A program made the position numbers and the translations under genes. A model generated the notes under the pieces. It saw nothing but the letters and a program-made list of their open reading frames with translations, was not told where the DNA came from and ran no database searches. Shown here piece after piece: positions 1 through 64,000 of a stretch of 64,000 nucleotides of DNA. The stretch comes from Asterochloris sp. CNOR1 (taxonomy: Eukaryota; Chlorophyta; Trebouxiophyceae; Trebouxiales; Trebouxiaceae), in NCBI GenBank assembly GCA_963969365.1, contig OZ017760.1, positions 1,736,001 through 1,800,000 of the forward strand. The letters run 5' to 3'. Position 1 is the first letter of the stretch; every line of letters begins with the position of its first letter.

Positions 1-133
1 TACGCAGCAGGACGCCACTGCCTGCCATGCATGCAGCGCACCTCAACAGCTGCTCCAGGCAACAGGCCCCTGTGCTACCCTGTCTGTGCTTCAGGATGAC
101 CAGCTGACAGAGCTTGCCGTCCCCGCTGTGCAG

Positions 134-2505
134 GTTGCCAGACCCCTTTTTCTCCATCCACACTGACAGGATCCACAAGGTGAGCCCAGCTGCATGAGCC
201 AGTCCTGCAGACCTGATAGCTTGGGGCAACATGAGACAGCAGACAGGGCTAGGCTGCTTGTACAGCATTCGCAGGCAGCAGCGCTGCCCGCCTCAGAAAC
301 CCTGACACACAACAATGGTGGCTGCACTTGCAAGCATATGGCCGAGTGCTGCCACCTGCTTGCCTGACGTGTTCTGGCTGCTGCGCGAGCACTGCAGCAG
401 GACACTGCCACTGCAGAAAGCTGGTGGCCTCTGAGGAGGGTGAGCCTGCCTTGCCACTTAGTTAGACTGCAGAGGAGAGGCACCACGCTGAGCTATCATC
501 GCCTCTTGATGCAGCGCTGAACAACAGAGCCTTCAGGGACAATGACTGACATGTTCAGCGCAACCCTGAGCTGCTCATGCCTGCTGCAGGTGCAAGCTCT
601 TGCATCCTGCAGTTCAACGATGGCACCTACCTTGAAGCCACTATTGTGGTGCAGGGAAAGCATGGCATCAACTGTTGACACCATGTGACTACTGACATTG
701 AGGGGAACGCCATATCAACAGCATCTTATGTCTTGCTACAGGAGCAACCTGTCTAGGCTGCCTGCCTGGCCAATCAGTGCTGGTCCCCAGTCCATGGCTG
801 ACTTCAACGGTTGTGCTGCAGTGCAAGCACGGCAGCGATTCTGAGACCTATGACACGGAAGGGCGCTATGTGGTGGAGAAGTTCGAGGAGCTGTGGACCA
901 AATATGCCAAGTGAGTGGCCTGGCCAGTATGCTTATTTCCGGCCAGCCTGCAGCCTGCACTCTATGCCACCAGAGCGCCCGCTGGTCGACACTCCTTGCT
1001 TGCAGACCTGGATGAGGCGCAGCCCAGGCTGGATTCAACTGCTCTACAGAGAGGCTGAGGGCCACAACAGGCCACACATGCTCACTGTCGCACGCACCAC
1101 TCCCATTCTGCTGGGGCGCGCATCGTGCCCCCATGCCTACCAGCAGGGGATGTTACTGCATGTGCTGCATCCTGTCCAGGCGTTTCAAGCTCAGGCAAGC
1201 GCCTTCTTCGCCCTGATGCTTTGACCAGTGTTGAGTCGCCGGGAGGCAGAGTGCAGCCCATGAAGACGCTCAAACGGCAGCTGACTGCCTCTGGGACCAA
1301 TTGCTGCCCGTCTTTGCTGTCTTTCTGTCTAGATATGGCACCCAAGCCCCGTTGTAAGCAGCTGAGGACAACTTGATCAGTGTCCCTGAGACTGACAGTC
1401 ACGTGAGCCTGCAGGCTGCCCCCTGAGATATTGCAGTCCCGTTCCTGAGGCTGACAGTCATGACCACAGTGCAGGGCAAGTACGACATGACCCTGGGGGA
1501 GCAGAGGACAGTGTCCCTGGGGCTGACAGGCATGCCTCCAATGCAGGGGCAAGGACTACATGTCCCTGGAGGAGCTGTGGAACATGACGGAGGGGAACCG
1601 CAACCTGTTGGATCCCACTGGCTGGACAGCTGAGAAGCTGGAGTGGCTGGCCACCATCTACCTGTATGGAGAGAAGCGGGTGAGGAGTAGAAAACTTGTC
1701 TGGAGACAGTGTGCTGCTTGTGTAAACAACATGCATCAGGTCTGCTTTTGCAGTGCACAGGGTGCATGACCAACAACTGCCTGCACGTGCAACATTTGTT
1801 AATATATGTGTAAACCTGATGATTGCGCGGGAGATGTGGGCGCTAGCCTGCTGTGGGCGTCATTCTGCTGTCCTGTCAAAATTACAGGCACGTGGCAGCC
1901 TGGACTGACAGCCAAGGCAAGGCAGCTGTCTGTGCTGGGCTGGGATCGTCCAGGCAGGGTCAGGCGCTTCCTGCCTGATGTATCAGCCATGCTACTGGTT
2001 TGTAGCCTGCAGCTTGGAGATGGTGTGCTGGATGCACGTAGGGCCGCATGTATCGCCTGCCCATTTGCATGACCCTGCAAGTTTGCAGGGGTCCTCAAGC
2101 ATGCCCGGCACCCAAGAGGGCACCGACTGTGAGGCAATCTGCCTCTGCATGCTGCGTGGCCTCATGGCTGTCTGCATGCTCTGCAGGGCAAGGACATGAG
2201 CCCGGGGCTTCCAGGCTACATTCCAGGAAAGGTGGGCTTGCTGCTCAGCGCAGCTGCTGGCCTTCTGCCTGCTGCATAGCGCTGCTTGGTATGGTGGCAT
2301 TGCGGTGCCTGCCTGATGAGGCTGGCGGTTAAAGATGCCCCTACAAGAGTTCAGCCGCTGGTCTGCTGTGGCAACGGTCACCACTGCCATGCAGGACAAG
2401 GTTTTGACAAAGGAGACAGCTCGCACAGCCTTTGATGGGACTCTTTTCCCAGCCACAGAGGCAGCCTTGAAACAGAAGAAGCTTGGCAGCAAGAAGCACA
2501 ACTAA
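134..2505 (+). CDS. Caleosin (oil-body calcium-binding protein / peroxygenase), 5' part outside window
   Basis: Caleosins are monotopic proteins of lipid-droplet surfaces; many are haem peroxygenases. Four exons join in frame: 134-180, 822-910, 1547-1679 and 2395-2505 (TAA). The first ends in FFSIHTDRIHK. The second begins CKHGSDSETYDTEGRYV, the family's conserved His-Gly-Ser-Asp and YDTEGR block. The third carries LEELWNMTEGNRNLLDP and GWTAEKLEWLATIYLY. The last carries LTKETARTAFDGTLF and ends with a basic tail (KQKKLGSKKHN). Phases agree at all three junctions (0, 2, 0). The N-terminal EF-hand and the membrane proline knot normally precede FFSIH and must lie left of the window. The two larger introns hold degenerate copies of the following exon edge. 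Family assignment is secure; peroxygenase activity is inferred. Confidence 0.9.
1381..1546 (+). repeat. Tandem copies of the caleosin exon-3 acceptor region inside its intron
   Basis: Three units start near 1381, 1441 and 1513, spaced 60-72 bases. Each begins with a GTCCCTGAGGCTGACAG-like stretch, and the last two run through a GCAG acceptor. The second unit continues at 1475 into GGCAAGTACGACATGACC, a degenerate copy of the exon start at 1547 (GGGCAAGGACTACATGTCC). The copied peptide would read GKYDMTLGE against GKDYMSLEE in the exon. Confidence 0.75.
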
Positions 2506-3222
2506 GTGCTACCATGCTGTCAGTCTCCATCCAGCAGTGGCAATGCCCTTCGCTAAAGCTTTCGAATTGCAGCCGGCCCATGTCCTCTTCATGTCCTCCT
2601 GATGAATTCTTGCCACAGTGTCTTCTGTCCACCATTGCTGAATATGTGATCTTCCAGCACTTCAATTCATGACCTGACAGCCATGGAGTTGCCAGCGATG
2701 CAGGGGACCACTTTGACTGTGCTAGGGTGGGGACACGACACGGCTGAAGGTCACGTTCAAGGTCTAGCATGCCTTTGACAATCATGGCCCTGACTTGCTG
2801 CCTGCACTCAACAAGTTCAAACCCTGCAGCAGCTATGGCAGGAAGCAGAGCCTAGTATATATATGTGTGCTCTGCCCAGCTCCTTGAGCAGCCACAGAAG
2901 CCTGATACAATGGGCTGGCCCGGGACCAGAGGGTGGGCCCACGCCAGGATGTCAAAAGACCTCAGGCCCCAGAAGGAGGGGAAACAAAAAAGTCCAGCTT
3001 CTGGATGTCTTGGGCAGCAGCACAGGGCGTTCACGATCATGCATCATCCAGAAACATGGCACCAGGTGCTCAACCGTGGCAGTGCTCATCACAGGGTGGC
3101 CAGCAGGAGGCCGCCCGCCCTGCCACACAACAATAGCAAGCCCCTGGTGAGATGCTGCACATGGCAATGCACTGTGCCTGCAGTAGCAGATGTGGCAGCC
3201 TGATGATGCTGCACACCTGCAC
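2506..3222. other. Intergenic stretch between caleosin and F-box gene
   Basis: No recognisable coding exon. It should contain the caleosin 3' UTR and the F-box promoter. I saw no clear TGTAA-type polyadenylation signal. A TATATATAT run lies near 2855. Confidence 0.4.
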
Positions 3223-7389: not shown

Positions 7390-10300
7390 ATGGACCTCAG
7401 GATCACGGTGGACGGCAAGGCTTGCACCATCGTTGGACTGGTGCTAATTTTTGTGGTGTTTTGGCAGGTACGGCTTCTGACCCCTACTCCTTCTTCTGCA
7501 CATGGTCTGCCCTGGAGCTAGCTTGTACACCTCTATGAACTGCGATGCATTCATCTGTGATTTGCTGGTGGAATTCACGTGAAAAATGTCTCGTCAGTGT
7601 ATAGTGGAGGCTGTCTGAGCTTATGGTGCAAGCATGGCCAGCCCTGCGCCAGCCATTGCACGCCTCCATCTGGTGAGCATGCCAATCCCTGCTGCCCCTC
7701 TGCAGGGTTGCCACACACAGGCAATCCTGAAATTTGCAGCGCTGTACTTTAGCATAAGCCGTTAGATGCCTCGACGTCAGCAGGCATGTCTAGGCTGCAG
7801 CTGCTTGCCTGCCTGTCTTGAAAGCCCCGAATGTGGCCCAATAGCCAGGCAGCATGCCCTTTTGCAAACGCAATGTACGTCTTGTTACTTATGCCAAGCC
7901 CATAAGATGCCTGCAGGGCTCCCCCACAGGCAGTCTACCACGCTTCTGAAGCAACGTAGACCTTGTCACTGCTTTGTCAATTGAGAAGCGTCTTGAAACA
8001 ATCATGCATGCCTCCTCCGGGCATGGTGGGTGTCACAGCCAGCTGAGCATTCAGATCGGCCCGGACGCCAGTCCGCTTGGCCTCCGCCTTCACATTGCCT
8101 TTGCCTGCCTGCCTGCAGGATGCCCCGACCACACGGCAGCATGCCCTGCTCTTGCAGCAATGCAGTCCAGTACTTGTCAGGTCAAAGCATCCATCGCCTG
8201 CAGGTGTTCCACAAGTCCCACAAGCCAGGCAACACAGGTCCTCATTGCGGCTGCCTGCCTGCCTGCAGGGGTCCCAGGTGCCCGGCCCCACAAGCAGCAT
8301 GACCCGCTCCAGAAGCATGCTGGCAGATCCAGGCATCATGCACCCCACCTACCTGGCGCAGCAAAGGCTCATGGAGCCAGAGGTTATGGCAGCAGGCAGG
8401 GATGCACCAGCAGTGGAGGCCACAGCCAACCTCACAGCAGCAGCGGCAGCGCTCAAGTCGACTGAGCCTCCTGCAACAACCCCCCCTGCCCCTGAGGAGG
8501 ACCTGCCCACCATCTTCCTTTCCATTGCAGCTTACAGGTGAGCAGTGGTGGAGCCATCAAGGAGCAGCATTTAGCCCTGGTCGGGGGTGTGGGTACTGGC
8601 TGCCTCACTCTGCCTTCAGCAGGTGCTCATTGTATATTTAAGACTGTCGTCGAAGGCTACCTATGGGGCCAAGTAGGGAGCGGCTTCACAAGGTGCAGCC
8701 ACCACAAGGCAGCGTCGCTGTCAGGGCTGAATGCTGACTGTCTCAGTCTGGCTGCAGCAGGTGCTTCTGTGTATGTTCAGGGCCGGCCTTTGCAGCCTAT
8801 GCATGCGGCAGGGGGGCGCTGAAGCCACCACCCTGCAGGACTGCTGTCAGGGCTGGGTGCTCGCTGCTGCGCTTGACCTGCAGCTGTTCTTCACTGCGTG
8901 CCTGAGGCTGTCGTCTGGAGCCTACGATTCAGTTGGTGAGCTGCTTCAGAGCAAAGCCTACCAACCTTGTAGACAGCAGTTGACAGTCGCGTGATGACGC
9001 TGCTGTGCTTGTGTTGCACTGGCTGTGTCCCTCTGCATTGCAGCTATCAGCATGCCCTGTGTGACAGGGCGCCTAGGGCAGCTGGGGCCACCTCGTGTCA
9101 GCAGAAGCAGCCGCAGGAGCATGCGCCACTAGGCGCCCTGCCTGGCCCTCTCAGCACTGCACTCAGCAGTTCCCTCAAAATCCCCTGGCTACAACGCTCG
9201 GCCACAAGCTCTGTGCTCCATGCAGCAGCCCCTGGCACAGCGGCCCGAGAAAGGCTGCCCTGTGAGTGCAGCGCCAGCACGCATGGAGCCCTGAAAGAGT
9301 GCGGGCTACTGTGTAGAGTGCTGCCCGCTTGTGTTACTGTTGAGCTGCAGGGACTCCCTGAGTGCAGGGCCCTGATCTTTCAGTTGGTTAACTGCTGGGC
9401 CCTGATCATTCACCTTTTTGAGATGGTTTGGAGTTGCCTGGTTCAGCCACACGCTGCCATTGCTGCAGGGATCCCGAGTGCAGCGCCACCATGCAGTCCG
9501 TCCTGGGAAACGCAGCACACCCCGAGCGAGTGCATGTGGCTGTCTGCCAGCAGATCAAGCTGCCCCATGAGGCCTGCTTGCAGAAGGACACGCCGCACCC
9601 AGAGCAGGTCCAGACCATAACCATTCCTTACTTCCAGGTGTGTGGCCACGGCAGCACAGCAACAGAAAATCTGGTTCGTACAGCCAGGGCTTACTCCTGC
9701 ATGAAAACTGAATGATGTCCAGGTGCCTCAGTTCATTGGCCTGCAATGAGTGTCGAGCAGCTCTGTGCGGGCCGGTCCTCCCTGGACTAGGCCACAGAGT
9801 GTTGTGCCGTGAGACCTCCTGCTCAAGTGCCGCAGTGTGCTGCCTGCAGTGTGAGGCAGCTGCTTGCCGCGCAGCTTGGCCGCCAGACAGTCCGCACCCT
9901 GTTGCTGCAGCAAGCCTGCGCCGCTGGTGCTCGTCGCTTTGGCCACTCCTGCTGCCTTGCATGCTAAGGGCCACAGCACAAGGTGGCTTGCCTGTACACA
10001 ACTGAGGTTGCGGAAGCTGGCGCCCCTCTGTCTGCAGGCCAAGGGGCCTACTGTGGCGCGGCATAAGGTGGCCACACTGTACAAGAATGAGGACATCTTC
10101 ATGCAGATTGACAGCCACAGCAAGCTGGCACAGGACTGGGACGACAAGGCAGTGGCTATGCTCAAGAGGTGAGGGGCTGGCCCTGTCGGGGGCCCTGCGC
10201 GGGGCACGACAGCAGGTCAGCTCAGGCTTTGGACAAGCCAGCAGTGGCCATTCATGAGAGGTGGAGCAGGCAGGGCGGCTTGTGCGATGTCCTGCAGTTG

Positions 10301-12657
10301 CAATCGTGCAAGGCAGCATGCTGTGTGTCGCAGGATGCCTCCTGGACGCTCAGCAATGCCACTACCCCTCGGACTGCAGTGTACCCTGGCTGCAGGTCTG
10401 CTGGCCACTATGAGTGTTGCTGCAGGTGCCCTGTGCTGTGCACAGCCACTGAAGGGCACATGCTGCGTCTGTCGCATTGTCCCCGCAGGTGTCCTGCAGA
10501 GGTTGACATGCTCTGCCGCTGCTCTCTGGTGGTGATGAGTGCCGGTGGCCATGAAGTAGCAACAGCTTGCACCCCCCTGCCTGCAGGTGCCCTGCAGAGA
10601 AGTGCTTGCTCAGCCACTATCCTCCCGTGATGGACTCCTTCGGCAACGAAGTGCCCCTCATCTGCAAGTCCCACTGGGATGAGGGCAGCCAGCTGCCCTC
10701 TTTTGCGCCCTTTGCCTTCGATGTCAAGATCGGGCAGTTCATGCCCACACCCTTCTCAGGCAGGTGCTGGGGGCGTTTGCAGCATGGTCTCTGCTCGCAG
10801 AATTTTAGTAGGCTGGGGGCTGTGCTGGGTGCAGAGACCTCCCTAACCGATCTCTGCACAGGCTGTGAGGAAGCTGCATTTTGCTGCACCACACCAAGCA
10901 TACCTCAGAGCCTGCTTATCTGCTGTCAGGGTGGCATGCTGACTTGTTGTCAGCACTCATTCAAAACTCTCAGAGATGCTGCGTTGTTGTAGTGCCTGCC
11001 TCCGCTGCATGTGGCTCGAGACTGCCTTGCCGCACACCGCTGCGCAAAATGCAGACTTTGCTCATGTGCTGTCGGCTCGGCATGCACCCCTTGCTTGAGC
11101 ACCTAGTCAGGGGTTCCAGAGAAGTTGAGCCTGAGGGCAGACTTCTCAGAGACATGGAGCTGAGGCAGGCCTCTCACAAATATGAGATAAGGCAGGGTTC
11201 TTGAGGGTATTGAGCTGAGGTGGCTCCTGCAGGTGCTGGCTTCATCCTGGCGCCTGGAGAGATCGTTCACGAGGTACCCTATGGTGAGTGATGTGCTTGC
11301 GGGTACACTTGTGTGCGACAGTCCCCCCAGTGGGTGGGATGGGTTTGCTCCGAGGCAGAGCTTGCTTTGGTGCTTGTTTTGTGCATCTTGTCAACAGCTG
11401 CCCAGACCTAAGTGAGTATCTTCGCTGTGCCTTTCCAGTGCGCCAGCTTTGTCCCATGTCGATGCAGAGACTGAGGCTGAGTAACGTATCATGTGGCTGG
11501 CATGCACACTGAGCATGGACTCCGGCGTCCTTTTCAAAGTGTTTGTCATTTGCAGACCCTAACCTGGGCATGATGTTTGTGGGAGAGGAGATCTTGCACT
11601 CAGCGCGGGCGTGGACTCACGGCTATGACATTTTTGCACCAGACGAGAATCTGGTGAGCTCCTGACAAGTCTCTCTACATCGTGGTGCTGGCTCTTGCGA
11701 GACTCTTGACCGTACAATTCTCGTTCACCCCCTCCCACCCCTTTCAGCGCTTGTGAACACTGGCGCTCCGCTTCCGGTTAGGCAAGCTTACCTCTTTGAG
11801 CACGGTGCACAAATATTCCCACTGCTGTTGCGTGCTCACAGCCCCTGTTCGGGGCTGTGGGTGCCACCAGCTGCATAGCAGGACAGGCCATGCCAAATCT
11901 TTTCACCCAGCTGTGTCCAACTCCCCTGCAGGTCTGGCACCACTACAGCCGCAGCGATAATCCAAATGGTGAGCTTGCTGGATTCTGCTGATCCTCACCT
12001 CGAGACATCGCTCATAATTTTGATGTTTCTGGCTGTAGCTGGGGCTCTCTGTTTTGTGTCAATTCAGCAGTTGAGCTCTCAGATGGCTTTGAACAAGAGC
12101 CTGCTCTCATTTGACTGTGCCAAGATGTGCAGAGAGGTGACCCTCACTGCACTGCTCAACATGATGGCCTGTACTGCAGTGTATGCGGATCGGCCTGAGG
12201 AGTGGTGGCATGAACAGCAGAAGAGCAATGCCCGTGCGCGATATATACTGGGAATCGATGGGGAGGCCAAGCCTGCTGACAGGGATGAGTCTGACTTCAG
12301 CTACTCGTATTATGGCATGGGCGAGGCTCGCACTCTGCAGCAGTACTGGGAGTTTGCAGGTGAGAGCCTGCGCCAGCCTGTCTCAGCGACAGCTCATATC
12401 TGCCCAAAGCAGCTGTTGCATTTAGCTATATTTTGCTCCAAATCCAAATGCTGCTGCCCGGCCTGTCTTGGCATGCAGTAGTGTGCTTGCTCCCAGCCAT
12501 CATGCTGCAGGTCCTGTGAGCTGGCTCAAGGCTGCCACCCCACCCTGCTTCCGAACTCCCGGCTGACTGCAGAGCACTGCATTGCTCTGCAGGTATCGAT
12601 GTGGTAAGCAAGGAGGTGACATCAGAGGAGAAGTTCTGCCATGGCCCCAACGCCTGA
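7390..12657 (+). CDS. Golgi GlcNAc-transferase-like glycosyltransferase (GT60 / Skp1 GnT1-type domain)
   Basis: Likely transfers N-acetylglucosamine in the secretory pathway; acceptor unknown. Ten exons join in frame to 416 residues: 7390-7467, 8269-8537, 9469-9637, 10038-10168, 10587-10759, 11233-11283, 11556-11653, 11932-11968, 12180-12359, 12593-12657. Exon 1 is a short cytosolic tail plus one hydrophobic anchor (ACTIVGLVLIFVVFWQ), a type II Golgi topology. An Ala/Pro-rich stem follows. The catalytic domain starts TIFLSIAAYRDPECSATM, then HPERVHVAVC. The metal/sugar motif is in FMQIDSHSKLAQDWDD. Next come LLSHYPP, GFILAPGEIVHEVPYDPNL, VGEEILHSARAWTHGYD and WHHYSR, all hallmarks of the PF11397 family. 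The intron after 10759 has a GC donor. Dictyostelium Skp1 GnT1 is a cytosolic relative, so the membrane anchor argues for a different substrate here. Confidence 0.88.
9351..9372 (+). repeat. Echo of exon 3 start in GlcNAc-transferase intron 2
   Basis: After a CTGCAG at 9345-9350 the sequence GGACTCCCTGAGTGCAGG copies the exon start at 9469 (GGATCCCGAGTGCAGCG), offset 118 bases. Related copies in other introns of this gene lie near 7800 and 8110 (before exon 2), 9963-10000 (before exon 4), and 10426 and 10489 (before exon 5). Confidence 0.7.
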
Positions 12658-13308: not shown

Positions 13309-16300
13309 TCAGTGCTGCAGTGAGGATGTGGTCTGAGAAGAGGAAGGTGAGTCACTGGCTTGCTCGCGCTGCTTCTTCTGAAGTTCGCGGCCTCGAGTCA
13401 TTTTCTGCAAGCAGGTTACACAGGCTGGTCAAGCATCAGCCAGGATATCCAACAAACACTCTAAAGTGGTGCACATCATGAAGCGCGTAGCTTTGCTGAC
13501 GGGAGGCAATCAACAAGACGTTGGCAGAAAGCACACCAGGCTGATGGATCATGAGGATGGCACTGCAATGCATGCATCTTGATGTACCCAGCAATATCAT
13601 CAGCCTGCGCTGCCTGCGTTGCAGCTGCATGCAGCCACGGCGCACCTCAAAGAGGCTGGCCACATGCTGCTCGTCAGCATCGCACGGCTGTTCCCGTCCA
13701 GCAACCAGGGCCCTGAGCCTCTCAGGGTTTGTGTTGAACAGGACGTCCCACACCATGCGCAAGTCTTCCATTGCTACACATCCCTGCAGCAGATTGGACA
13801 ACTCTGAGCTCAATTGCAGCAGATTGGGCTGCCACAACTTTCTAGTACATATCGCAAGTCCTCCACTGCCACACATCCCTGCACTACTGTAGTGAATCAT
13901 GTGGTTGTGCGTGTGCAGCAAATGTGACTGACTTTCAGAGTCCCTGAGAAACTCAGTGTCTCAGATCCCTGCAGCATGGGGACAGAGGGCCGGCTGAGAG
14001 ACTGAGACGCTTGAATGGCTGCTATTGCAGGCTGGAGATGATGTGCACACAGGATCAGCTGCCTTGACTGTACACATTTGTCAGTGCTTCCACTGCCCCG
14101 AGGGGCCCGTCATTTGGGAGAGGCGGCCACACCGGCTGCCATGTTGCCTGGGGTGCGGCATGTTACTGTGTTGTGAGTTGAGAAGCTGCGCTGAGGCTGT
14201 GCAGTGAGCCACAGCAAGCTTGCCACCTGTCCTTCTGCCTGCGCAGACAGTACTCACTGGGCGCCGCGGACGGCAGGCAAAACCCTGAAACCAAGACACA
14301 GTGCCACTTGCCTTCTCGCTGGTGCCCGCAGGGGCGAAGGAGGGGCTGCTGAGGTTGTCCTGGCTCATGCTCTTCTGCAGAGGCTTCAGCTCCGGGCGGC
14401 CCTCAGCAGCACCTGCAGGAAGCACCACAGGGTGCTGAGCACACTGACCCAGTCCATGCAGGGGCAGGCACTGAACTGCTTTTGCACCGGAGGTGTCACC
14501 CCTGCTGGTCCTGCCCCATGTTGACCGATCGACCAGCCGTCTGTCGTGTCACACTTGATGGAGCAGTGACTGCAGCCTGGTGCTGCATGCACAGGCCACC
14601 AGCGCACAAGCGGGCGGCACTCAGCAGATCTGCGCCATGCAGGGGGGCAGCGACAGCAGTGCACCAGTTCCCGTCAGAGGCGTGCGATCGGCGCTGAATG
14701 CTTGCTGCGCCTGGCACGGGCAGGCAGGTGCAGCGCCTGCAGACCCAGAGGGGGTGGCTCTGTGGTCACCTGGGCCGCGCTGCTCCACTTCTTTCATGAC
14801 CAGGTGGCACATGCTGCACAGCAGCATGCAGTCCATGGCGCTGAAGCTGTGGTCCTTGCAGTCGAACACACTCCTGCACCAGGCAAACTGGTACTGAGTG
14901 CTCTGCAGAGGGACTGAGTCACTCGTTGCCAGTTGTGGCTGGCCCACTGGCAAACAGGCAGAGCAGGCGTGATGAAGCAGCAGCACAGCATGCCAGCAGC
15001 GCAGCTCAGCAGCACAGAGCAGCTGCATGCCTGCAAGCTGATGGGCATGCAGCTTGTATGCAGCCAAGTGGCCAGACACGCAGCTTGCGCGCCATGTGCA
15101 GCCTGCATTGCTCACAGGGCACCAATCACATGTCCACGTGGTGAGAGCAGGGGAGCGCCAGCGTAGAACACAATGTGGGGTGGCCCAGTGACTACCCTGT
15201 TGTCTGCAAACCTGCAGTCAACAAAAGGACAGCTCTCTTCATGAAGCCAGTCACAGGCGTGACTTCTTGATGCTTGTGCAAGTACATAGCGTTAAGCAAG
15301 GACAAGTAACGCAAGAGTCCCTTACAATGCATTTCACCGAACAAGTGGCAAATGAGATGAGACCCCCAACTTCCGCTCTTTGGGAGGATGCATGCGGCAT
15401 GCTGTGTCACCCACTGCATAGATTTTGCCACACAGAGACCATCCTGCTCATGCTGTTGAGCAAATCAGTGCGCCATCCTCATAGCAAGCAAAGACGGGAG
15501 AGTCGAAGCGCACCTGGAGTCCTGGCGTGCATCAGGAACAACCAGCACACTGGCCTGCCCTGGTACGAGCATCCATGTGCAGAAGGCCTCATAGGCTGGG
15601 CCCCCCCAGCCAGCACTGACGCCTGCAGCATGGCAGATCATCCAGAGATCAGCAAGGACCTCACAGGACGAGAGGGCTGCCGCTGGCAGTCAGGCCATTG
15701 ACTGGCACCCAAGATGGGGCAGCAGTCACAGAAAGGATCTTGCCACAGCAAGCTCATCTAAGCATCAGCTGGAAGATTTGAAGGAGCAGCACCTGCTTAA
15801 AACCACACAGAGTCTAGATGACATGAGTGAGTTGCTGTGTCACGCAAAATGAGGGTTTCTGTGCAGCCCAGCACACCCTCAGCAGCAGCCAACGGCATGC
15901 ATACCTTCATGCAGGCGCAGTGCCGCGCAGGTTCGTGACCTGGTGCAGTCAAGCCCATCTGCTCCTAGTAGGGCCGTCAGCAGGGAAGCCCAGATCACCC
16001 AGATTGTGCTTCACTTCACGGTCATTGCTTACCCACTCCCGACTTGACGTAAACACGCTCCTCGTCCACTAGACACATGGCGGCAAAGGGGCACTTGAAG
16101 ATGGTGGCAATGGTCTCTGTGAAGTGGTCAAACACTGGCTCAGGTGGGGTGTTGAGAAGCCCAAAGGAGCGCACCACCTTGAGCCTGCAAACAATAGGAA
16201 CTAAGGATCTCACTGAAGTAGTCGTACGTTGGCTGTGCAGGCAGGGCAGCCCAGCAGCATCCAGTGTCAAGTGCAGGTGCCTCAGCACACGTGGTTCCCA

Positions 16301-37720: not shown

Positions 37721-37872
37721 CTGCAGCATTGATGGCTGAGTCAGTCTGAGAGCCTCTGTTGTACATGCACAAACCCCAGCAGGATTGGGCTCCAGCTACA
37801 AAAGCCCATGCCTGTCCAAGCCCTGCAAAGAGGTGTGTGCACAGACCAAAGCAGGACTGGACAACAAAAGCA

Positions 37873-47900: not shown

Positions 47901-50900
47901 GAGTATCTTCTGTTGGGATGCTGTTCAGGCGTTACCAGAGCTGCAGTCTGACAAGGATCTGATGACAGGCAGTAGTCGAAGCACACCCACAGATGCCCTC
48001 AGTGCTGTAGCAGGCATGCATCACTTGACTGCAGACCTGCACTGCCACACTTGCGACCAATGGTTTGTTAGGGCTGAGCCAGCAGCTGTGCTGCTGATGC
48101 AGTGTCTGGCCTCCTGCCAGCTCACTTCCCCTGGCCTTGCAAGCTGCTTGGGCGCTCGATCTCACAAACAGTTGCAGCCGCATATCTGCACTGTCCACAA
48201 CTGCACCAGCATGGTCCACCGCTGAACTCCTGCTGACCGAGAGAGCCTCTCTGCAGGCAGCATGCGGCACACCAGCACATGTACGGACTCTCGGGGGAGC
48301 GCAGGGCGCGGTGCAGGTCAGCAGAGCAGTGTGTCTGCTTGGCATCCGCAAACTTCGGGCGGGGCAGCAGCTTGACGGAGTGGTCGCGCGGCATCACAAC
48401 TTCTCACTTGGCCTGCGCATGTGGTGGTAGTGGTTGCAGGAACCAGGAGCTCAGCCTTGCTTGAAGTTGGCCCCAGCCTGGCTGGCAGGCAAAGTTATTA
48501 CATATCAATCAGAGTCTCTCTGTGTCCTCTTCAGCAGGCGGCTCACCGGGCTCCCTTATCTGCAGGGCTGTCAAAGCTGCTGACGTCACGCGTAGGGAGT
48601 GCATCGCGGGCCGGCAGTGCACAGACAGTGAGTCGCTGCACATACCAACCAACTTCTAGCATCGCTCAATGCAACGGGGCAACAATGCATGAGCCCCTGG
48701 CTTCGCCTTCACCATCCAACCCCCATAAGTGCCTCTCATGCACCCTGCACACTGATTCCCAGCAGGGACGAGCTGTGAGCTGCAGATTCACATGCAGACC
48801 TCATTGCTGGCAGCTGAGTGGCTTGCTGTGCATGCGTCACTAGAGCTGTCTTTCAGGCCCTCAAAGATGTTGTGGCTCGCCGGAACTTTGCTGTGTGCTC
48901 AGCTGGTACCAGATTCTGCAGCTGGCAGCTGCTCAATGCCTGTTGCTCCATGCTTGTCCTTCAGCCCTGTACGTGTTTGGCTCTAGCTGCCTGTCTATCA
49001 TGCTATGTGGCTCATGACAACTGGGGGGAGATGGCCTGTTGCAGCACGCCTGGCGCAGTCTCGGCTGTTTGCTCACCATCTTGTGGCTGTGCACAGCATG
49101 CACAAGCAGCTGTTGCATTGCGCTCCAGCTCATCATCTGTGGACATGCTGCCCGCACAACAGCAGGATGTGATAGGCCTTGCTGTGCACTGCAACATGGG
49201 GTCTGCAGTTAAGCTGGGCACAAACATAGCTAAGACACAGCCACCAGTCTGCTGCCTCCATGCTTCAAGTCAGACATTGCTGGTGCAGGGGCTGTCAAAA
49301 TTTTCCTCATCAGAACTGTTGGGATCTGGGCGTGGCTCAGCTCCCTGGATTGTGAACCCTGATGACCTTGAGTGGTGCCTGAACGCCGAAGGAAATCCAA
49401 TTGTTCTGGGAAGGGGAGGCTTTGGAGAGGTGCGTAGATGGCCAACTGTCATATTATGCACACATATTGCAAGGTGCTCCTACAGATGGTGGCTATGTTT
49501 AGATGCACAGCACTCCTTGCAACCTGCAGTAACATGAGCTAGTCTGGGAGGGTGGGAGGGATGCCAGCTTTGTTTTAAGGCCAGCTTTCTGTCGTGCATT
49601 GCTGAGCCTGTGCATAATAATTGCTCGTGGTGCTCCATGGCATCTGCAGTGCCCCATGATAGTATCTGCTGCAGACACTTTGACCCACAGCAGCAGCCGC
49701 CATATCTGGCAGCCCGTACAGATGGGGTTCACTGTGCTGCGGGTGTTTGAGGCATTGTGGCATAAGCTGACTGCTGTGTGAGGCTGACTGCTCTGTGGTT
49801 CTACAATGGCACCCTGACTGTTTTGAAAGGCTCAAAAACGGGAAGAAAGGGGAAGTGCATGGTCTCAGACATTGTTCCACCATTCTGCAGGTGTACAAGG
49901 CACTATGGCAGAAGCAGACCATAGTGGCTGTCAAAGTCATGCGGGAGCAGACTGACAAGGCCCAGCAGGCTTTCCTGAAGGAGATTGAGGTCCTATGCAG
50001 TCTCCGGCACCCTAATGTGGTCTCCTTCTATGGCGCGTACGCACAGGTGAGGCACTTGGGCAAGCTTACAAGCCTTTCTGGAGGTTTGAGGTGCTTCGTA
50101 ACCTCCGCCACCCTAACGTGGTGTCAGCTTTGCACAGATGAGCACCTGTGCTGGGCAACATCAGTGCATGAGCAATAATGGCTGCGAAAGCTTGACACTG
50201 CAGTCTGGTGCAGCATGGCTGCCTGACACTGCTTGCTGGGACAGCCTTGTGCAGGATGCTTGACGCTATGCGCTATGCATGCCTCTTGATGCAACATGTC
50301 TCCAAGGCTGGCCCTGCAGTCTCTGACCTGTGGTGCACACACACTATTCAAAGTCAGCATGGACTGGCCCCATAGGGCTGCAGCATGTCTGGAGCCGCAG
50401 CTCAGCATTAGGCCCCACTGCCTTTGACAGGCTGTGTGACAATGCCTGCTTCATCACGTATCGTGGGAGCCAATGTGCATTGTGCAGGCCCCTGCCCAGG
50501 CTGAGGGCCCAGCTTCTTCAGCAGTGGGGAGCACAGGGCCAGCTGTTGCTGTTCATATATGTGTTTTGGGGTGGCCTGTAAGCCTTGCCTGCTGCTGTTA
50601 CTGGGAGGGGCCTGGTAGAGAGCATTGGGCACCGTGCTGGTGATCCAGCTGCTCCTGCTGCCCTCTGTTGGCAACGAGCACTGCACTACGTGTTGAGATG
50701 GCTATTGCAAGCTACTGAAGGCTGACAAACTTATAGTCGGCGCTTCAGCTGCCATTGCTATACTGGCTTCGTACCGACATGCCACCTGCTCCGCTGTGCT
50801 GCAGAATGACACCATCATGCTGGTAACAGAGTTCATGCCTCGGGGCGACCTCTACCACGCCCTCAACTCATCTCAGCAGCCTGGTGCATGGTGGCGCAGG

Positions 50901-52875: not shown

Positions 52876-54975
52876 AATTGAGATGTGTGATGTGTTTTTC
52901 TACTGGATTTCGGTGCTTGGCAGTATCTCTGCACAAGTCCTGATTGTGGTTACTTACCCCTGAACGTCAACTTTACACGTGTATCCAGCATGAAATGACA
53001 CCCTGTACTGCAGTTGATTTCCTGCTCCCTCTGTGTTCACGCTGATGACTCTACCACAAACTGAAGCTGGGTTTTCATTTGATGCTAATCCTGGCCTGAC
53101 ACAAGACCAGTCATGTGTAGGCACATTCTGAATTCAATATCTCAGTTCTGGACCTGGTGCCACCTTGGTGTTGACGAGTGGTGCACATTGTTGCAGCAGC
53201 ACAGTGAGCCGCAACTATTCACCATCAGTGATGTTGCTCCACCCAGACCATGGCTGCCTCCATATTGACAGCTATATACTGCACCTGGCCTCATTGGCTG
53301 TGCAGAGCATCAGCGCTGCAGCCAGCAGACCCAACATGCCGTGTAAGCCTTCTACTCCTCAGATTTTTTACCAAAATCAGCTTTGCTGACGCGTAGAGGA
53401 GTTGATGGACTGGTATCCTCCCTGCACGTTCACCTGCCATTGCCGAGAGGATCAATCACCTTCCTCCCATTGGCTGGGACTATAAATCTGTTCGGAGCCA
53501 CTCAACAGTTTCTCTGATTGCATCTACGCATGACTTTGAGCTGATATAGAGTGTTGTGCCCCTACTAGAAGCAGAAAGCCATGCAGAAAGTGCTTGGGCT
53601 GGAGCAGGGAAATCCAGGGTGCTGCCAAGCTCAAAGGTTGCTGTTGCTTCGATGCCCAGTACACCTTCTGCCCCTGTCTGACTGGGAAAAGCATCACACT
53701 CTGTAGATCATGCTCCCATGGACAGACCATGGCCAAGAGGACACACAGGCAATGCAGCCTTCAAGTGCGGCAGGCGGAGGCCAAGCAGACCTCCAAGGAG
53801 CCTGCATTCATCGAGTTTGGGGTGAGGATCTGCAGGATGGCAAGTGCTCCACCCATGCAGCACATGTAGAGGAGACATTGGGACACCATTGAACTGCTAA
53901 TACTAAGCATGGGCCGCCTGCAGTCACAGATGCCAGGGTCAGTGCCCGTCTCAAGGGAGCGCCCTCAACAGTGGTCGGCAAGAAAGCTCGAATTCCTCCA
54001 ACCTGCCGGCACTGAAGCCCCGCCAATTGCTGCTGCAGAGCACTGCTGGAAAGCAGCAATCAGGAGGCAGGGGTTCAAGAGGTGCAGGCATGCAGGGGCA
54101 GGACCAGAAGGTGGATGCAGAACAGCTGATGGGACGTGCGGTAGGTAGCCCCAGCAAGGTCTGGAGTTGCTGCGCCTGAGTGAGGCACTGTATGCCTATC
54201 ACGCAGGGTCTGGGGTGCCCAGGCGCAGAGGCTGGCAAGAACCTTGCACCCTCATGCACGGCAGCATGAAGTGTGGGGGGCTGTGGGAGAGGCAGTGAAA
54301 TAGTCAGGCACCCTTGACGTGGGATGCAGCCCAACTGATGGAGGGAGCAGGGAGTGACATTGTGTCATTGCCTGCTGTGTCACCAAGGCAGGCTGCCTTC
54401 CAGGGGCGCCTCGTGGGTGTGCAGTGAGCGTGGCCGCCATCTTTGTGCTGCTGCAGACCAGCTGCCTGTGCGGGGCCTCAAGGGGCTGCCAGTGAAGTGT
54501 GGCCATGTTTTGGTGCTGCACACAGGCACAATGTGTGCGTGGTGCATTATGCGACGCAGTGCGTTCTGCTGCATTCATAGGTACATATGCCTTCTCTGGC
54601 TGCCTCTTGCATAGCAAAGTGCAGCGTGCCCAGGATGTCTTATCAATCTGCAGGAAGTGCAGAGCCAGCATGGCACTGCCATTGTCTGCTGAGCTGGCTG
54701 CCCTAGGAGAGCAGCCGGGGACTGCTCTGCTGCCTGCTGCAACAGCTGCCAAGTGCCTGTGCCAAACATGTGTCGCCGCCTGCGCCATGAGCACACTGGC
54801 TCTGCGGCTCGCTGCAGTCATGATGGTGGAAGCAGCCTTGTTAGTTGGACTGCTTGTGCGCTGCTGCATGCTGCAGGAGGCTGCCCTGGCATCGGCCAGG
54901 AGGACGCCCCATCTGAGTGCCCCTTCTTCACGACTGTGCATCACTTGCCCGCCACCATACGCTGCTCTGCTGCAG
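52876..54975. other. LysM-kinase 3' flank and ESV1-like gene 5' region
   Basis: 52876-53590 has no recognised gene. A candidate first exon for the starch protein lies at 53729-53821: ATG, then KRTHRQCSLQVRQAEAKQT and PAFIEFG, with a GTGAGG donor. It is basic and hydroxylated like a chloroplast transit peptide. Another possible exon is near 53960-54140. An echo of the exon at 54976 sits at 54877. Confidence 0.4.
54877..54910 (+). repeat. Echo of ESV1-like exon start (nearly identical)
   Basis: CTGCAG followed by GAGGCTGCCCTGGCATCGGC repeats the exon start at 54976 (GAGGCTGCCCTGGCGTCAGC), offset 99 bases. Both encode EAALASARR. Divergence is low, so this is one of the youngest copies. Confidence 0.85.
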
Positions 54976-57900
54976 GAGGCTGCCCTGGCGTCAGCCAGGA
55001 GGGCACTGGAGGAGGCACGGCAGCGAGCCCCTGTGAGGCCCCAGTATGGCGAATTCGTGTTCCAGAGCAGGTGGGCAGGGCCCCTTCTGCTTGGAGAACC
55101 CCACAGCTGTGGCACCTGGTCAAGCAGAGGGACACCGTGGACAGCAGCCATGCGCTGCCCTGCAGGAGCTGACCTACAGGAAGACACCTTGTCATGCTGT
55201 CACAGCTGCTGGCTGCAGGCCGGACAATGGCATAAGGGCGTCAGCAGGCACAGCAACTCCTCATGCCCCTGGGCAGCAGAGAGACGCGGAGGGCAGCAGC
55301 CGCACTGATGCCGCACTGCACGAGGCTTTGGCCCGCATGTCGGGCGATGACCTGCCGGCCTCATTCGACGAGGGCAATGGGCCGACAGGCAGCATCGCCA
55401 CAGCAGGTGAGTCCTCACATGCTGCCTCACATGCACGGGCTGCCCTGAGGCCCAAGTGGGACAATGGGGATTGTGACTCACTGCTGCATCTGTGAGGCCT
55501 GCTGACGGCTGGCACTCCCGCCGGGCTCGCATCGCAGCCACACAGGGACTGATTGTGGGGCCTCAGGCAGGATGAACAAGAGCCCACCGAGACTCCCAAC
55601 CCTCCCACCCCCAAACCCCCTTCCTCAAAGGCCCCCTTTCCCTCCAGCTCCCCACTTGCCTGCAGGTCTGTGAAGCAGTTCTAGAAAGCTACACCAGGCG
55701 GCTGGAATGCAGCTGGACATTAATCTTTTGCATGCCTTGCCTGGGAGGGAACTATGCTCAGCAGGACTATACTCAGCAGAGCGTTGCAGGTAGTGGGGAC
55801 AGCAGCCAGACAATACCATAGACAGCTGTGGCCCCCCGCCTGGCCATGTCCTGAGCGTCACAGGAGCTCACCTGCACACCTGGCCTGCAGGGCAGAGGGG
55901 TGAAAGCACCGCCCCCAGCTGGGCAGAGGGCCTCAGCAGAGAGGACAGCAGCCGGGAGCCAAGCATGCACCGCTTGTCCCACACCCCAAAGCAGCAGCTA
56001 GACTATGCAGAGCCCACCGCAGCCAACCTGGAGTTCTCGGCCACACAGTCAGAGCAGGTGAGGGGGGTTTTAGGGCCAGAGAACTCTGGTGGCAGCACAA
56101 CTGGTGGCGCTGTTGATGCTCCAGCAGCATTTCATATTGGGACAGGCTGGACATGCAGGGTTGGAAAGTTTGTGCAGTGGGTGTGAAGCAGCAGGCTGCA
56201 AGCAGGTTGTGCTGGGATCGCAGCAGGAACACGAGCTGTGGCTTGCATCGCAGTGGGCCTTGCAGCTGAAATTGAGTTCCAGCGCACCACCTGCAGATGC
56301 ATCCTGCGCATGTTCAGCCGCTGGCAGTGCTGCTTCCTACGTGTTTGACGGGTTTGCATCCAGCTCAGGTGACTGTGAATGTCATGTGTTTGCAGCTGCA
56401 AGGACCATTGCTGAGTCCTGCCAGGTGTCTCTGCCTGCAGGACGCTGCCTGGGCACATGCAGCCGCCCTCCCGCCGCTGCAGAGCGTGATGGAGATGACT
56501 TCGGCCTACAAGCCCCCAGCGCGTGGGGAGGAGCCTGCGATGGACATGGTCAGCTCCTCTGCAGGTCAGCCGCCCTCACCGTGCCTGGAGAGTACATCCT
56601 TGGCTTTTTCTGGAATTTGTAATTCTGGTGAAGTCAATATCTCTGGGCCGCCTATCATCAGGGCACAGGACTGGGCAAGGGCATGCCAGGGGCCCTGCAA
56701 TGTCCTCCTGGATTACATCTATGCTGCCTGTTCTCTCGGTTGCTCATGGCTGGGGGTGAGAGCCTGCCTAGGAAAGCTGCAGACCCCTCTGCAGTCGAGC
56801 TGCCCCTGACAGCGGTCTGGAACAAGCCATGCAGGGCAGCTGACGACAAATACTGCTGTTTGCAGTGTTTCTCTCCCAAGCATTTTGAGTTTCTGTTTTC
56901 AGGAGACAGGAATCTGCCGTTTGAGTGTTCAGGCTGCATACTCTGGCAGCATGAGGTCCTACTTTGACCACATTGAACTGCAAACTATCATTCACTGCAA
57001 ATGTGCAAGTGTGTGCATGTGCAGGGCGCGCTCTGGAGGATGGCAGTGGAGTGCTGCCAGACGGCACGCAGTGGGACCGTCAGTCAGGAGAGGAGTTCGG
57101 GCCCAATGGCTACTGGTTCAGATGGCACCGCCTGCGCGGCAAGAGTGGCAAGGTGTGTCATGCATTTGCTGCCTACAAGATGTATTCAGGCATCATCGCA
57201 ACTGTCAAGTGCAAGCATGCCTGACTTTGCGGCTTGGTCAGCGGCAGGGCCTGGTGACAGACAAGCTGTACAAATGGAAATATGCAGAAGGATGGATGCC
57301 TGCTTGCTTGGTCTCAGCACAGGTCATTGACAGGGCTCAAAAACTGCAGTGTGCATGCAGGTGGAGTGGGAGGAGTACTGGTGGGAGGCCAGCGACTGGG
57401 CAGGGATGAAGGAGATGGGGGCAGAGAAGTCGGGGTGCAGCGCTCAGGGAGCGGCCTGGCGGGAGACCTGGAAGGAGGCGTTGACCTTTGACCACGCCAC
57501 CGGGGAGCCGGTGGTGGACCGCACAGCCCACAAGTGGGCGCATGACGAGAAGGTGCGGCATGGTCTGCTCCTGTGGGGTGTGGGGGAGGCTTGCAGCGAC
57601 AAGTGTTGGCCTGCATATCTCACATCCAGGCGCATGCCTTGGGCTGCTCTGAGGAGGCCTTGGGATACCTCTGGCTGATCAAACAGTCCATAAGCTGGTG
57701 CAGAGCAAGAGCTGCATCTGGTCCTGGCCTAGCCTGCCCTACCTGACCACACTGCATCCCCTGTATGCTGCACCACACAATGTCTAGCTGGGGGCATGTC
57801 TAAGCCTGCAAGTGGGACTTGGGTGGCACGAAGATGCTGTTGCTTGATTGTGGGGCAAGCCACCAGCAGGTGAAGGGCTGCTGGTTCTTCGTGAGGGACG

Positions 57901-60694
57901 TTTGCTGCTCGCCAAGACGGCGCTGTGTCATTATGGCATGGCCCTGTGGGTGACTGCACACCCTCTAGGCAGTTATGGGTGATGGAGCATTGCGGGTGGT
58001 GTTTCTACTCATTGCTTCCTCCCCAGCTCAGCTTGGCAAGCCAGCATGCCGCCTGGCTTCTGATGTGAGTTGTGGCTCCGCTTTGATTGGACCATGCAGG
58101 ACCATGTGAACCCAGCTTGTCAGAGACTTCTCCTCGCCTCGCCCACTTACGCTGGCTATGTGCTTTCAGAGCGGTTTGCCAAGGTGGTTGGGAGCCTGCA
58201 ACGCATGTATGCATGGCAGTATCTGACAACTGGCTGCACTCCAGGTCAGTAGGGCATCCTGCCCCAACAGCAGCAGTTTCCACATGTTTGGACATGTGGG
58301 CGACCTTGTAGCTGCCGGCCTGGCCATGGCTTGTTTCAGCCCTGCTTCCTGTCTGCCAGGTCCCGGTGCCTTTGTCAGGTTCCAGATAAGAGGTACCGAA
58401 GGTCATGCAAGACTCTGCGGAGCGGCATGTGGGACGAGGAGGAAGGGGGAGCGGTGCGTGTCCACCACTCCAAGAATGCCGTTCACAAGCCGCCAAAGAC
58501 CTTGCCTGCAGGGCGATGAGTGGGAGGAGAAGTGGGGGGAGTGGTGGGCCTCCCTGGGCCGCGCCAACAAGTGGGCCGACAAGTGGGGCAAGGACGGCGG
58601 CTCAGTGTGGCACGAGAAGTGGGGAGAGGACTACGATGGGGAGGGCGGGTGCATCAAGTACACAGACAAGGTGAGACAGAGGCTGCGTGGATGCTTTAGC
58701 ATGCTTATGCTCTGCGCAATCCAGGACATTGATCACTGTGGGGCTGCAATGGAGCACCAGATGTTCTTGTGCCAACAGCATACCAAGGTGCCTTCATTGG
58801 TCATGAGCTGATCAGGCCTAGCCCGAGTGTGCAGTGGCTCTGGACATGGGCCTCAGGGCAGGGCAAGTCTGTAGTGGCCAAAGCAGCAGCCTTGTGCACT
58901 TCTTGCGGCATTGCAGCCGCTGCACATCAGCGCTGATGAGGGCTGCTCTCCAGATGGGGGCTCGTGCACCGCGCCCACTGCAGCTGTCCTTATGTTCCTA
59001 CAGGGGGGTTGTCCTGAGCTGCAGTGGGCAAAGCGCCTGCTGTAAGGGCAGGCCAAAGCAGCAACAATGCATCGGGTGGGTGTGAGTGAAAGCTGCATGC
59101 CCGCCTGAGTGCAGAGGACTGCACAATTGTGCGCCTAAAAAAGCCTGTTCACTGCCATAAAGATGTGCCCCTGGCTGCAGTGGGCTGAGCGCCTGCTGGC
59201 TGAAGGCAAGACAGAGCAGTGGGGAGAAAAGTGGAAGGAGGACTTCAAGGATGGCAAGGGCAACAAGACGGTGAGCTGAGACGTGGCTAGCCAGACTGAA
59301 CCCTAACCAACACAGAGCACGGGTAGATGTTAGCGGGGAGCACACCTCGTAGGCCCTGCGGTGACTGACTGCTCTGACCTCCTCTCAGTATTGATCAACG
59401 TTCCTGTCGGTTGTGATCCGCTTGATTGACCCTTTGCACTGACAGGAGTACCAGCACAGACCTTGCGAGGGTCACATTCTTTGGTTGATATCTGCGCTGA
59501 CAGCGGTGGCTGCGCCTGCAGGGCGAGACCTGGAGCGTGGACGAGCAGGCCAACAGGTTCCAGCGCTGGTGGGGCGAGAACCACTTTGGCAACGGCTGGG
59601 TGCAGAAGTATGGGAACAGCACCGCAGGTCAGCGTGCACCAGCAGCTGCCGGCTTGAGGGCAGCAGCAGGCATGGGGGGTGGTGGCAGGGGACGGCAGAG
59701 CATGCATGCCTGGTGGCGGCAGCTGCAGGCTTGAAGCGCTAAGGCAGGGGATACAGTGGTGGCATGCCTGGTGGCAGCCGCTGTGTGGCTGGCATACCTT
59801 GCGCTGTGCCTGCTTTGCAGCCTTTCTGCACCTGCCCCCTGCTAGGCAGGACCAAGTCGGTGCTGAAGCACAAGGCAGACCCTGATTCCATTGCAAACTG
59901 CACCTCGCACACACTGCTGGAAGGTGGATGTGTTGGCCAGGAACCAGCTTGCCGCCATGTAGTCTTGAGTGCAGCACTTGGCTCACAGTCCTTGCTGCTG
60001 CATTGTCTGGCCCCTCCACTTCCCTGTTGTCTGCAGGTCTGGCAAGCGCTTCCAGCTGCGGTCTGTGTGTACAGTCTGGAGCCTCACTCAGGTGTCTTGC
60101 AGGGGAGCAGCAGGATGCCAGCCGCAGCGCGCCAAGACCTGGAGGCCTGTATGTGGCCTGGTCACTGTGCTGTCAACCAGGTGCCATGCAGACCAGATGC
60201 TCCTGTCCTGGCCACCTGCACTCAGCAGGGCACCAGTTCTACACCAAAGCCACAATGACAGCAGAGTGGTGCCCTGCAGGAGGCCGAGTGCAGTCTCAAC
60301 ACGGTCTCCTGTGGCAAAGTCTGAGCTACTGCCTTGATGTGCTGCATGCAGGCGGACAGCGGGATGTCGGCACACTGCTAGCCTGGGCTCTCACTATCCT
60401 GCAGCGCCCGGTAGTGACACCAACAAGCATGGGACCATCTGAAGTGGTGTTTCTGCTGGGGAGCAGTGGAATGTCAGCAAGGTAGATAGGGAAAGTTCAT
60501 CAGTGGCTCAAGTGTGGCCACATGTTGTGCCTGCAGGGGAGCAGTGGGACGTCAGTGAAGAAATGGATACCTACTACAACCCCATCCCTGTGGGGGGCTA
60601 CGACTGGGCCGTAAATCACTCTCCTCAACTGAGAGGGGTGGCCACCAAGCCACGTGGAGGCGACGACCTAGGCGATGGACTAGACGCGCTTTGA
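54976..60694 (+). CDS. ESV1/LESV-like tryptophan-rich starch-binding protein (5' end uncertain)
   Basis: EARLY STARVATION 1 and LIKE-ESV1 bind glucan chains in plastid starch and organise granules. The conserved Trp-rich domain is spread over in-frame exons: 57025-57152 (QWDRQSGEEFGPNGYWFRW), 57361-57552 (VEWEEYWWEASDWAG), 58512-58670 (GDEWEEKWGEWWASLG; VWHEKWGEDYDGEGG; KYTDK), 59181-59270 (WAERLLAEGKTEQWGEKW), 59522-59627 (RWWGENHFGNGWVQKYGN) and 60537-60694 (MDTYYNPIPVGGYDWAVNH; SPQLRGV; TGA). Order and motifs match the family throughout. Upstream exons are 54976-55067 (EAALASARRALEEARQRAP; YGEFVFQSR), about 55280-55408 (DAALHEALARMSGDDLPA), about 55939-56058 and 56441-56564 (MEMTSAYKPPARGEE), giving a linker. 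A plastid transit peptide is expected but its exon is only a candidate (53729). Confidence 0.88.
59025..59060 (+). repeat. Echo of ESV1-like exon start with stop codon
   Basis: GCAG then TGGGCAAAGCGCCTGCTGTA copies the exon at 59181 (TGGGCTGAGCGCCTGCTGGC), offset 156 bases. The copied frame hits TAA at codon 7. Similar copies of the last exon start (60537) lie at 60103 and 60458. Confidence 0.75.
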
Positions 60695-63215: not shown

Positions 63216-63807
63216 CTGTTGAATCCAGGGATCAGGCTGCCAAGAAAGTTACAAGCCACAACATTTCCATGCTATCTTCGAAGTTTACTCTAACCTGCCC
63301 AACAGCACAGATGGTGCTAAGTGGAGGGGAAGGGGCCAAATGGAGAGGGAGTGTACCTGCTGACCCTAGTTGCTGATACTGGAGGGCACAGTGGTCATGC
63401 AAAAAAGGGAAGCTGACGCGTCTTGCTGGGGCAGGGCTGCCAGCTGATGACGCCCAAGCAAATGGCAGGCAGCATTCAGCGTGGCAATTGAGAGCTAACC
63501 AGGCCTCTCAGCTGCGGCTGGGCGCTATCTGCAGGCAGCAACTGCTGCTGCTGACAGGTGCCACCTGCTCCAACAAGGTGTGCTTGGCTGATGGCTTGCA
63601 TGGCATCAAAGCTGCAATGGGCAAGGTGCACAGCTGCAACAGACCTCGCATGGTTTGCCTGTCGTACAATACACCTAATGATGTGCACATAATACAAAAC
63701 TTTCCAGCTCAGCACTGTCTAGCAGCCTGCTGCCGACAGCAATTCATGCAGCCAGCCAAGACTGGGCAGCTATGGTACAGTGCCAGGCCAGGTCGAACAA
63801 CATTCAG
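63216..63807. other. Spacer upstream of the F-box/XPA-like gene
   Basis: Probably the promoter and possible first exon of the - strand gene to its left, plus the 3' end of the - strand gene to its right. No motif was recognised. Confidence 0.4.
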
Positions 63808-64000
63808 TCAGGTGAGGTCCACAACATCATTGGTGAGGTCCATGATTTCGCCATCTCCAGGTGATGGTGCCAGCTCTGGCCTGTGCAGATCATAGTTGAC
63901 ATCTATCACCAGGTGGTAGCCACCACTGACGAGCTCATAGCGTTTCTTTGGACGAAGGGGGCGTGTCTTTGCAACAGCTCCTTGTTGGACCCCCAGCACC
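63808..64000 (-). CDS. 3' end of an unidentified gene with SUMO-interaction-like motifs (partial)
   Basis: The open frame enters from the right edge and ends at TGA (63808-63810). It has a basic stretch, RPLRPKKRYELVSGGYHLV, then HRPELAPSPGDG and finally EIMDLTNDVVDLT at the C-terminus. IMDLT and VVDLT resemble the V/I-x-D-L-T SUMO-interaction motifs of SUMO-targeted ubiquitin ligases. I do not recognise the rest. The exon could instead splice on into the F-box/XPA-like gene, but no good donor is present before the stop. Confidence 0.45.
   Translation of the reverse strand, partial: VLGVQQGAVAKTRPLRPKKRYELVSGGYHLVIDVNYDLHRPELAPSPGDGEIMDLTNDVVDLT

Follow-up and report, generated by a model that had tools for sequence, protein, structure and literature searches.

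Intronic copies of exon edges in the green alga Asterochloris sp. CNOR1 as probable remnants of general short-range duplication

Why should the introns of a green alga carry degenerate copies of the exon edges beside them? The question arises from a window of 64,000 nucleotides of Asterochloris sp. CNOR1 (contig OZ017760.1, C15:1736001-1800000; GC content 58%), the whole stretch of DNA analysed here, in which genes for a caleosin, an N-acetylglucosamine (GlcNAc) transferase, a kinase and SRP72 are each split into many short exons. An initial annotation made from the letters of this window had listed such intronic copies, or echoes, and read them as tandem duplications across splice junctions that lengthen introns, create decoy acceptors and fit a model of intron birth. 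Our data indicate that the echoes are probably the visible tail of a general short-range duplication seen through survivorship, neutral scars by which introns have been lengthened.

The window belongs to an assembly of 56.4 Mb in 21 contigs. Our sample consisted of 264 kb of contig C15 (the 64-kb window and the adjoining 200 kb), together with four 8-kb stretches, each from a different contig other than C15. A small gene finder trained on the 264 kb predicted 62 genes with 619 exons and learned a donor consensus of CAG/GTGAGC and an acceptor consensus of CTGCAG/G, where the slash marks the junction. A 156-bp repeat at approximately 37.9-38.8 kb was excluded from the analyses of codon position, offset coverage, flanks, and frame, splice-site and substitution patterns, and the exon-edge tests disregarded any edge less than 3.5 kb from either terminus of the 264 kb.

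Ungapped same-strand matches, tallied per offset over the 264 kb, numbered about 1-2.3 per offset at 45-165 bp, compared with 0.025 at 3-5 kb. Normalised, the density at 45-165 bp was 6.0 per Mb per offset, approximately 95-fold above the 0.063 obtained from a resample that keeps composition within 2-kb blocks. The same local excess was present in all four stretches from other contigs (3.1-6.3 per Mb per offset), and 50 kb of Escherichia coli K-12, used as a method check, gave a density of 0 at these offsets. Words favoured by a biased composition, such as CTGCAG and GGCTGC, might be suspected of producing such similarity by chance, as TGCAG recurs often and is also the usual acceptor; the resampled density and the failure of exon-edge probes to find any echo 3 kb away (0/428, with 10/900 for noncoding probes, at the looser cut-off described below) leave this explanation almost no chance of being right, in agreement with the initial annotation, which had ruled it out. 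Direct pairs at 45-165 bp (1.0-2.2 per offset) far outnumbered inverted ones (0.07-0.17 per offset, 9-17 times rarer), and inverted copies, being a minor share of local pairs, were rejected as a major class. Doublets, a class of short local duplications, reportedly prefer the same strand; the short-distance excess and the same-strand orientation that mark them are both found here. The 229 gapped pairs at offsets 30-299 in the 264 kb occurred in exons, introns and intergenic DNA alike. With an excess at short offsets and nearly all pairs direct, local duplication, as originally proposed, is supported as the source of the echoes.

The association with exon edges was traced using probes of 15 intron and 40 exon bases, taken from exons with high coding scores and compared with the 340 bp alongside. 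With the most stringent coding-score cut-off, which retained 92 of the 619 exons, echoes were found at 19/85 acceptor and 19/89 donor edges, compared with 28/500 noncoding probes, 29/500 probes from any position and 3/83 exon interiors; exon-edge targets 3 kb off yielded 0/174. A looser cut-off gave 44/210 acceptor and 37/218 donor edges (81/428 together) versus 33/900 noncoding probes, so that the excess of edges over noncoding DNA was 3.9- to 5.2-fold. In this larger sample the earlier impression that echoes lie mostly at acceptors did not hold. Echo-bearing introns were longer than the others (median, 489 versus 366 bp; 27 versus 54 introns; p = 0.004), which supports the proposal that echoes lengthen introns, although longer introns also offer more room for an echo. 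A dedicated process of duplication over splice junctions was not borne out, since pairs occur in all kinds of sequence, donor edges carry echoes about as often as acceptor edges and survivorship can yield the excess if most events are old; no splice-specific process is required by the data.

We suggest that same-strand duplications of approximately 30-140 bp arise anywhere in this genome, with copies mostly 45-165 bp apart, and that their products are partly head-to-tail tandems and in good part short copies placed across an unrelated spacer. As the molecular step, serial backward slippage with re-priming would be preferred, and fill-in of staggered breaks might account for the tandems. An event across an exon edge would be harmless if the original junction were still used; the copy would then stay and the intron would lengthen. 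Thereafter, selection would preserve the exon copy as its intronic counterpart drifts, whereas noncoding pairs would decay on both sides. Because the exon copy is frozen, edge pairs should remain recognisable long after noncoding pairs have faded. Pairs noncoding on both sides were indeed fewer than under a shifted annotation (56 versus 79.4), as faster decay predicts.

Survivorship was simulated with ages in substitutions per site, where a lower limit of 0.1 or 0.2 marks the youngest events kept. Per-lineage ages of 0.1-0.6 gave an edge excess of 3.2 and ages of 0.2-0.6 an excess of 12.5, which bracket the observed 3.9-5.2. An even rate continued to the present yielded just a 1.7-fold excess, and the account therefore needs mostly old events. 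Young pairs were scarce: among pairs with at least 30 aligned bases, 15/174 reached at least 85% identity, compared with 74/214 in a constant-rate simulation, and the number of pairs per 5% identity bin from 70% upwards in the 264 kb was 55, 53, 25, 11, 3 and 1. The scarcity of young pairs and the old-skewed edge excess agree with each other, and we infer that old events predominate and that splicing still uses the original junction.

Several observations weigh against this interpretation, among them the 1.7-fold excess under a constant rate and the unexplained fall in activity that the account would presuppose. The exon models are mostly ab initio, with few genes supported by homology. ATG edges (echoes at 2/14) and stop edges (0/6), which would be the clean control, are too few to separate survivorship from targeting of splice sites. 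When the annotation was slid along the sequence, acceptors showed a modest excess (82 versus 62.3; 1.32-fold; p = 0.007) and donors none (64 versus 61.8; 1.04), in a test blunted in part by echoes that were themselves predicted as exons. It could also be argued that the duplication event itself favours splice junctions or transcribed exon edges, for example through transcription-linked breaks, since the observed excess exceeds that expected from a constant rate combined with survivorship. We regard this as unlikely, as breakpoints are scattered around the junction, 5/23 donor echoes end short of it, and the old-skewed age distribution accounts for the excess. A bolder version of the survivorship account, which we hold as a tentative and somewhat doubtful possibility, is that the lineage passed through an unusually intense episode, now largely over, of short-range same-strand copy insertion, in which 30-60 bp were often copied over tens of bases of spacer rather than duplicated in plain tandem, and which has left approximately one-fifth of exon edges with a recognisable intronic copy. 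If so, some introns, such as that of SRP72, would consist in large part of material from the exons that border them and would form a fossil record made readable by the frozen exon copy.

This SRP72 intron is the best single example of exon-edge copies in an intron (Table 1). Its flanking exons join in phase when the predicted inner exons are omitted, giving one continuous match to human SRP72 (133.5 bits) with no gap at the junction, compared with 122.4 bits in separate stretches when the inner exons are kept. Two copies of the upstream exon end lie on the donor side and three clear copies of the downstream exon start on the acceptor side, and together these make up approximately one-third of the intron length.

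Could the echoes be real duplicated exons, mutually exclusive or additional coding ones, mistaken for introns? The initial annotation had itself warned of mis-modelled exons. In pairs with one exonic copy (n = 101), mismatch rates at codon positions 1, 2 and 3 were nearly flat (0.244, 0.226 and 0.286), as they were in pairs with both copies called exonic (n = 46; 0.263, 0.275 and 0.276). Frame was not retained in the echoes, with offsets modulo 3 distributed 22/27/35 rather than as multiples of three. Taken with the continuous SRP72 match, these patterns lead us to reject mis-modelling for the bulk of the echoes and make the duplicated-exon explanation very unlikely. Support for it comes from the kinase pair 49966-50061/50069-50151, whose mismatches fall mostly at third positions (4/3/10); among the window cases listed, this copy is the most coding-like on both sides, and it may be a genuine alternative exon, unlike the bulk.

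If the echoes were maintained for a role in splicing, as decoy sites or as alternative ones, preserved splice signals would be expected. AG was retained in 31/47 echoes and GT in 18/37, close to the approximately 58% expected from an identity of about 76%. The acceptor core (positions -5 to -1) showed an identity of 0.86 versus about 0.75 in the exon part, which counts against purely neutral scars and in favour of kept decoys; the identity of the donor core was not raised, and the matching junctions of two paralogues described below carry no echo above the cut-off. We therefore consider maintenance for function highly unlikely, and decoy acceptors, in the sense of a kept function, were not supported. 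The substitution spectrum was ordinary (A>G, 0.132; C>T, 0.114; transition/transversion ratio, 0.87). Mutation of the kind seen in repeat-induced point mutation was rejected, as C-to-T changes did not dominate this spectrum.

Not all of the pairs are tandem. At offsets 45-200, 32% of 183 pairs overall and 59% of 29 high-identity pairs covered less than half of their offset; the corresponding values were 4% and 1% (n = 105) for simulated tandems and 41% and 44% (n = 98) for simulated spaced copies. Erosion of tandems was rejected as the origin of the spaced pairs, as flank similarity in the 107 pairs with coverage below 0.6 of the offset did not exceed the random level. In the 29 best of these pairs, the flank scores lay close to that level (right, 8.93; left, 8.36; random, 8.60), although scores of at least 12 occurred in 7/29 of them compared with about 13% expected, a weak hint towards tandem erosion; in the older groups, such scores occurred in 4/46 and 2/32. 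Low offset coverage together with random-like flanks indicates that a good part of the pairs are short copies with an unrelated spacer. In the pair 54859/54960, neither the 56-bp spacer nor the outer flanks show visible similarity. The description of the echoes as tandem thus holds for some head-to-tail pairs, such as the clean tandem at 30294-30443 (80%), and fails for those covering less than half of their offset. The most similar pair listed is a 78-bp perfect tandem duplication in a predicted intron on one of the sampled contigs (L018:7719-7879).

The relative age of introns and echoes can be read from three GlcNAc-transferase paralogues, the window gene and genes at approximately 1.982 Mb of C15 and 3.642 Mb of C1, which share intron positions. 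Echoes were present at 3/14 junctions of the window gene and at 0/10 and 0/12 matching junctions of the paralogues, a comparison that adds to the points of caution above, as each paralogue junction was assigned to whichever AG or GT lay closest and one or two may be off; one of them scored 16, just below the echo cut-off of 17. The edge at 9469 is conserved in the paralogues and has no echo there. The restriction of echoes to the window copy at shared junctions indicates that the introns predate the echoes and that the echoes are not conserved.

The same comparison bears on the model of Rogers, in which introns are born by tandem duplication of AGGT-containing exon segments. In its favour, local duplication is abundant, and a 211-bp intron of the window GlcNAc-transferase gene (11969-12179) is missing from both paralogues, a difference that would reflect either intron gain or losses. 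The ends of this intron do not resemble its flanks by eye, and a genome search with it matched its own locus only. Moreover, none of 556 introns had an identity of at least 28/58 between donor and acceptor flanks at an offset equal to the intron length (null, 0.25 per shuffle). The model is thereby weakly refuted for recent gains, while the signal of old gains would be lost. As an explanation of the echoes it is highly improbable, and the intron creation first suggested also conflicts with three paralogues that share intron positions while one alone has above-cut-off echoes. Introner elements were a further candidate that was rejected: two introns were searched, with very common words skipped, and each was found at its own locus only, one of them also at its own neighbouring exon edge.

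Intron lengthening is usually attributed to transposons and small insertions, and our findings suggest that a measurable share of intron sequence here derives from local copying. Exon edges, being a frozen reference, can be used to date each event, and a single genome then allows one to measure how often short duplications arise, how long they are and how they decay. Some echoes were mistaken for exons in our ab initio gene prediction; echoes also provide spare acceptors on which alternative splicing could draw. Among the matches listed in a literature search, no title reported exon-edge copies in algal introns. Our contribution is the density of such copies at the edges of exons in a single algal genome, with E. 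coli, as a method check, the only other organism sampled, and the reading of this density through survivorship.

Related systems are known. Short local duplications or doublets (Thomas et al. 2004, as cited in PMC2671141) are an established kind, and the repair-mediated proximal duplications of Pace et al. 2009 (PMC2671141) exclude pairs within 50 bp and have a spacing of approximately 1.2 kb. Both resemble our pairs in being short, local copies; ours differ in their spacing of 45-165 bp, their identity of mostly 70-80%, their algal host and their tracing to exon edges. Complex tandem insertions have been described for fly and primate genomes (PMC2374710). When staggered breaks are filled in, as studied with 43-base overhangs (PMC8355091), small tandem duplications result that are similarly direct and local, whereas a good part of the pairs here have an unrelated spacer that simple fill-in would not be expected to yield. 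Intron gain by tandem duplication (Rogers 1989, via PMC4974935; potato RdRp, PMC4974935; Drosophila, PMC2891723) also places duplication close to splice signals, but here existing introns are lengthened without a birth signature. Where exons are duplicated in tandem and spliced in a mutually exclusive manner (PMC9013439), copies of exon sequence likewise lie beside the exon, whereas the copies here are partial and in bulk lack coding constraint.

Individual echoes of the window were compared with their neighbouring exon edges by local alignment. For 15 of 16 listed coordinates, fewer than 1% of 400 random targets each scored as high, and the echo at 10426 was weak (3.25% of random targets equally good). 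Those at 27150 and 50081 align to the exon part only, with the junction itself unmatched. For three echoes near 32 kb, whose kinase edge at 32042 was read from open reading frames and for which 60 random targets each were used, those at 32181 (score, 17) and 32345 (18) exceeded all random scores (maximum, 12), and that at 32294 (11) did not. The original list of echoes therefore stands for 17 of 19 coordinates (15/16 and 2/3), the exceptions being 10426 and 32294. The caleosin-gene echo, in a gene matching Pfam caleosin, had a Smith-Waterman (SW) score of 31 versus a random maximum of 15, and its pair is nearly a full tandem. Near 62.65 kb, where a weaker case had been suspected, a pair of 76% identity was found (62593-62633/62661-62699). 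The edges at 13783 and 27027 are examples among several of ab initio predictions without homology support.

Table 1. Positions of exon-edge echoes and related copies in the window, counted from its first base.
Feature	Position	Strand	Paired copy	Identity and remarks
Caleosin gene, acceptor-edge echo	1441-1508	+	1513-1581 (exon start 1547)	80% over 69; offset 72
GlcNAc-transferase gene, echo of acceptor edge 9469	9344-9369	+		96%, 26 aligned; offset 118
Echo of acceptor edge 10587	10482-10557	+	10580-10652	67% over 76; offset 98; SW 22 versus random maximum 18
Echo of predicted acceptor edge 13783	13853-13883	-	13758-13788	90% over 31; offset 95
SRP72 intron with copies of both flanking exon edges	24668-25660	-		993 bp
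SRP72 donor-edge copy 1	25504-25579	-		77%
SRP72 donor-edge copy 2	25364-25436	-		70%
SRP72 acceptor-edge copy	24995-25059	-		80%
SRP72 acceptor-edge copy	24886-24950	-		78%
SRP72 acceptor-edge copy	24695-24753	-		72%
SRP72 fourth acceptor-edge copy	25148-25211	-		69%; weak
Echo of predicted acceptor edge 27027	27068-27104	-	26998-27034	78%; offset 70
Kinase gene, intron repeat pair including echo 32181	32166-32276	-	32330-32444	71% over 115
Echo of kinase acceptor edge 49891	49730-49771	+	49878-49919	74%; offset 148
Downstream copy of kinase exon 3' part	50069-50151	+	49966-50061	66% over 96
Echo of acceptor edge 54976	54859-54903	+	54960-55002	93% over 43 aligned bases; spaced, not tandem
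Echo of acceptor edge 59181	59013-59061	+	59170-59219	85% of aligned bases; offset 157
Echo of acceptor edge 60537	60445-60477	+	60523-60555	82%; offset 78

The gene at 57025-60694 encodes a tryptophan-rich protein with GDEWEEKWGEWW-like repeats, for which Pfam gave no match at E 0.01 in the part scanned. The repeat set aside above lies at 38017-38579, where 3.6 copies of a 156-bp (52-codon) unit, 96% identical, lie inside a long exon of low complexity predicted on the minus strand. Elsewhere in the assembly, among the rows listed, C1 carried TTTAGGG telomere arrays at its two ends and C2 at one.

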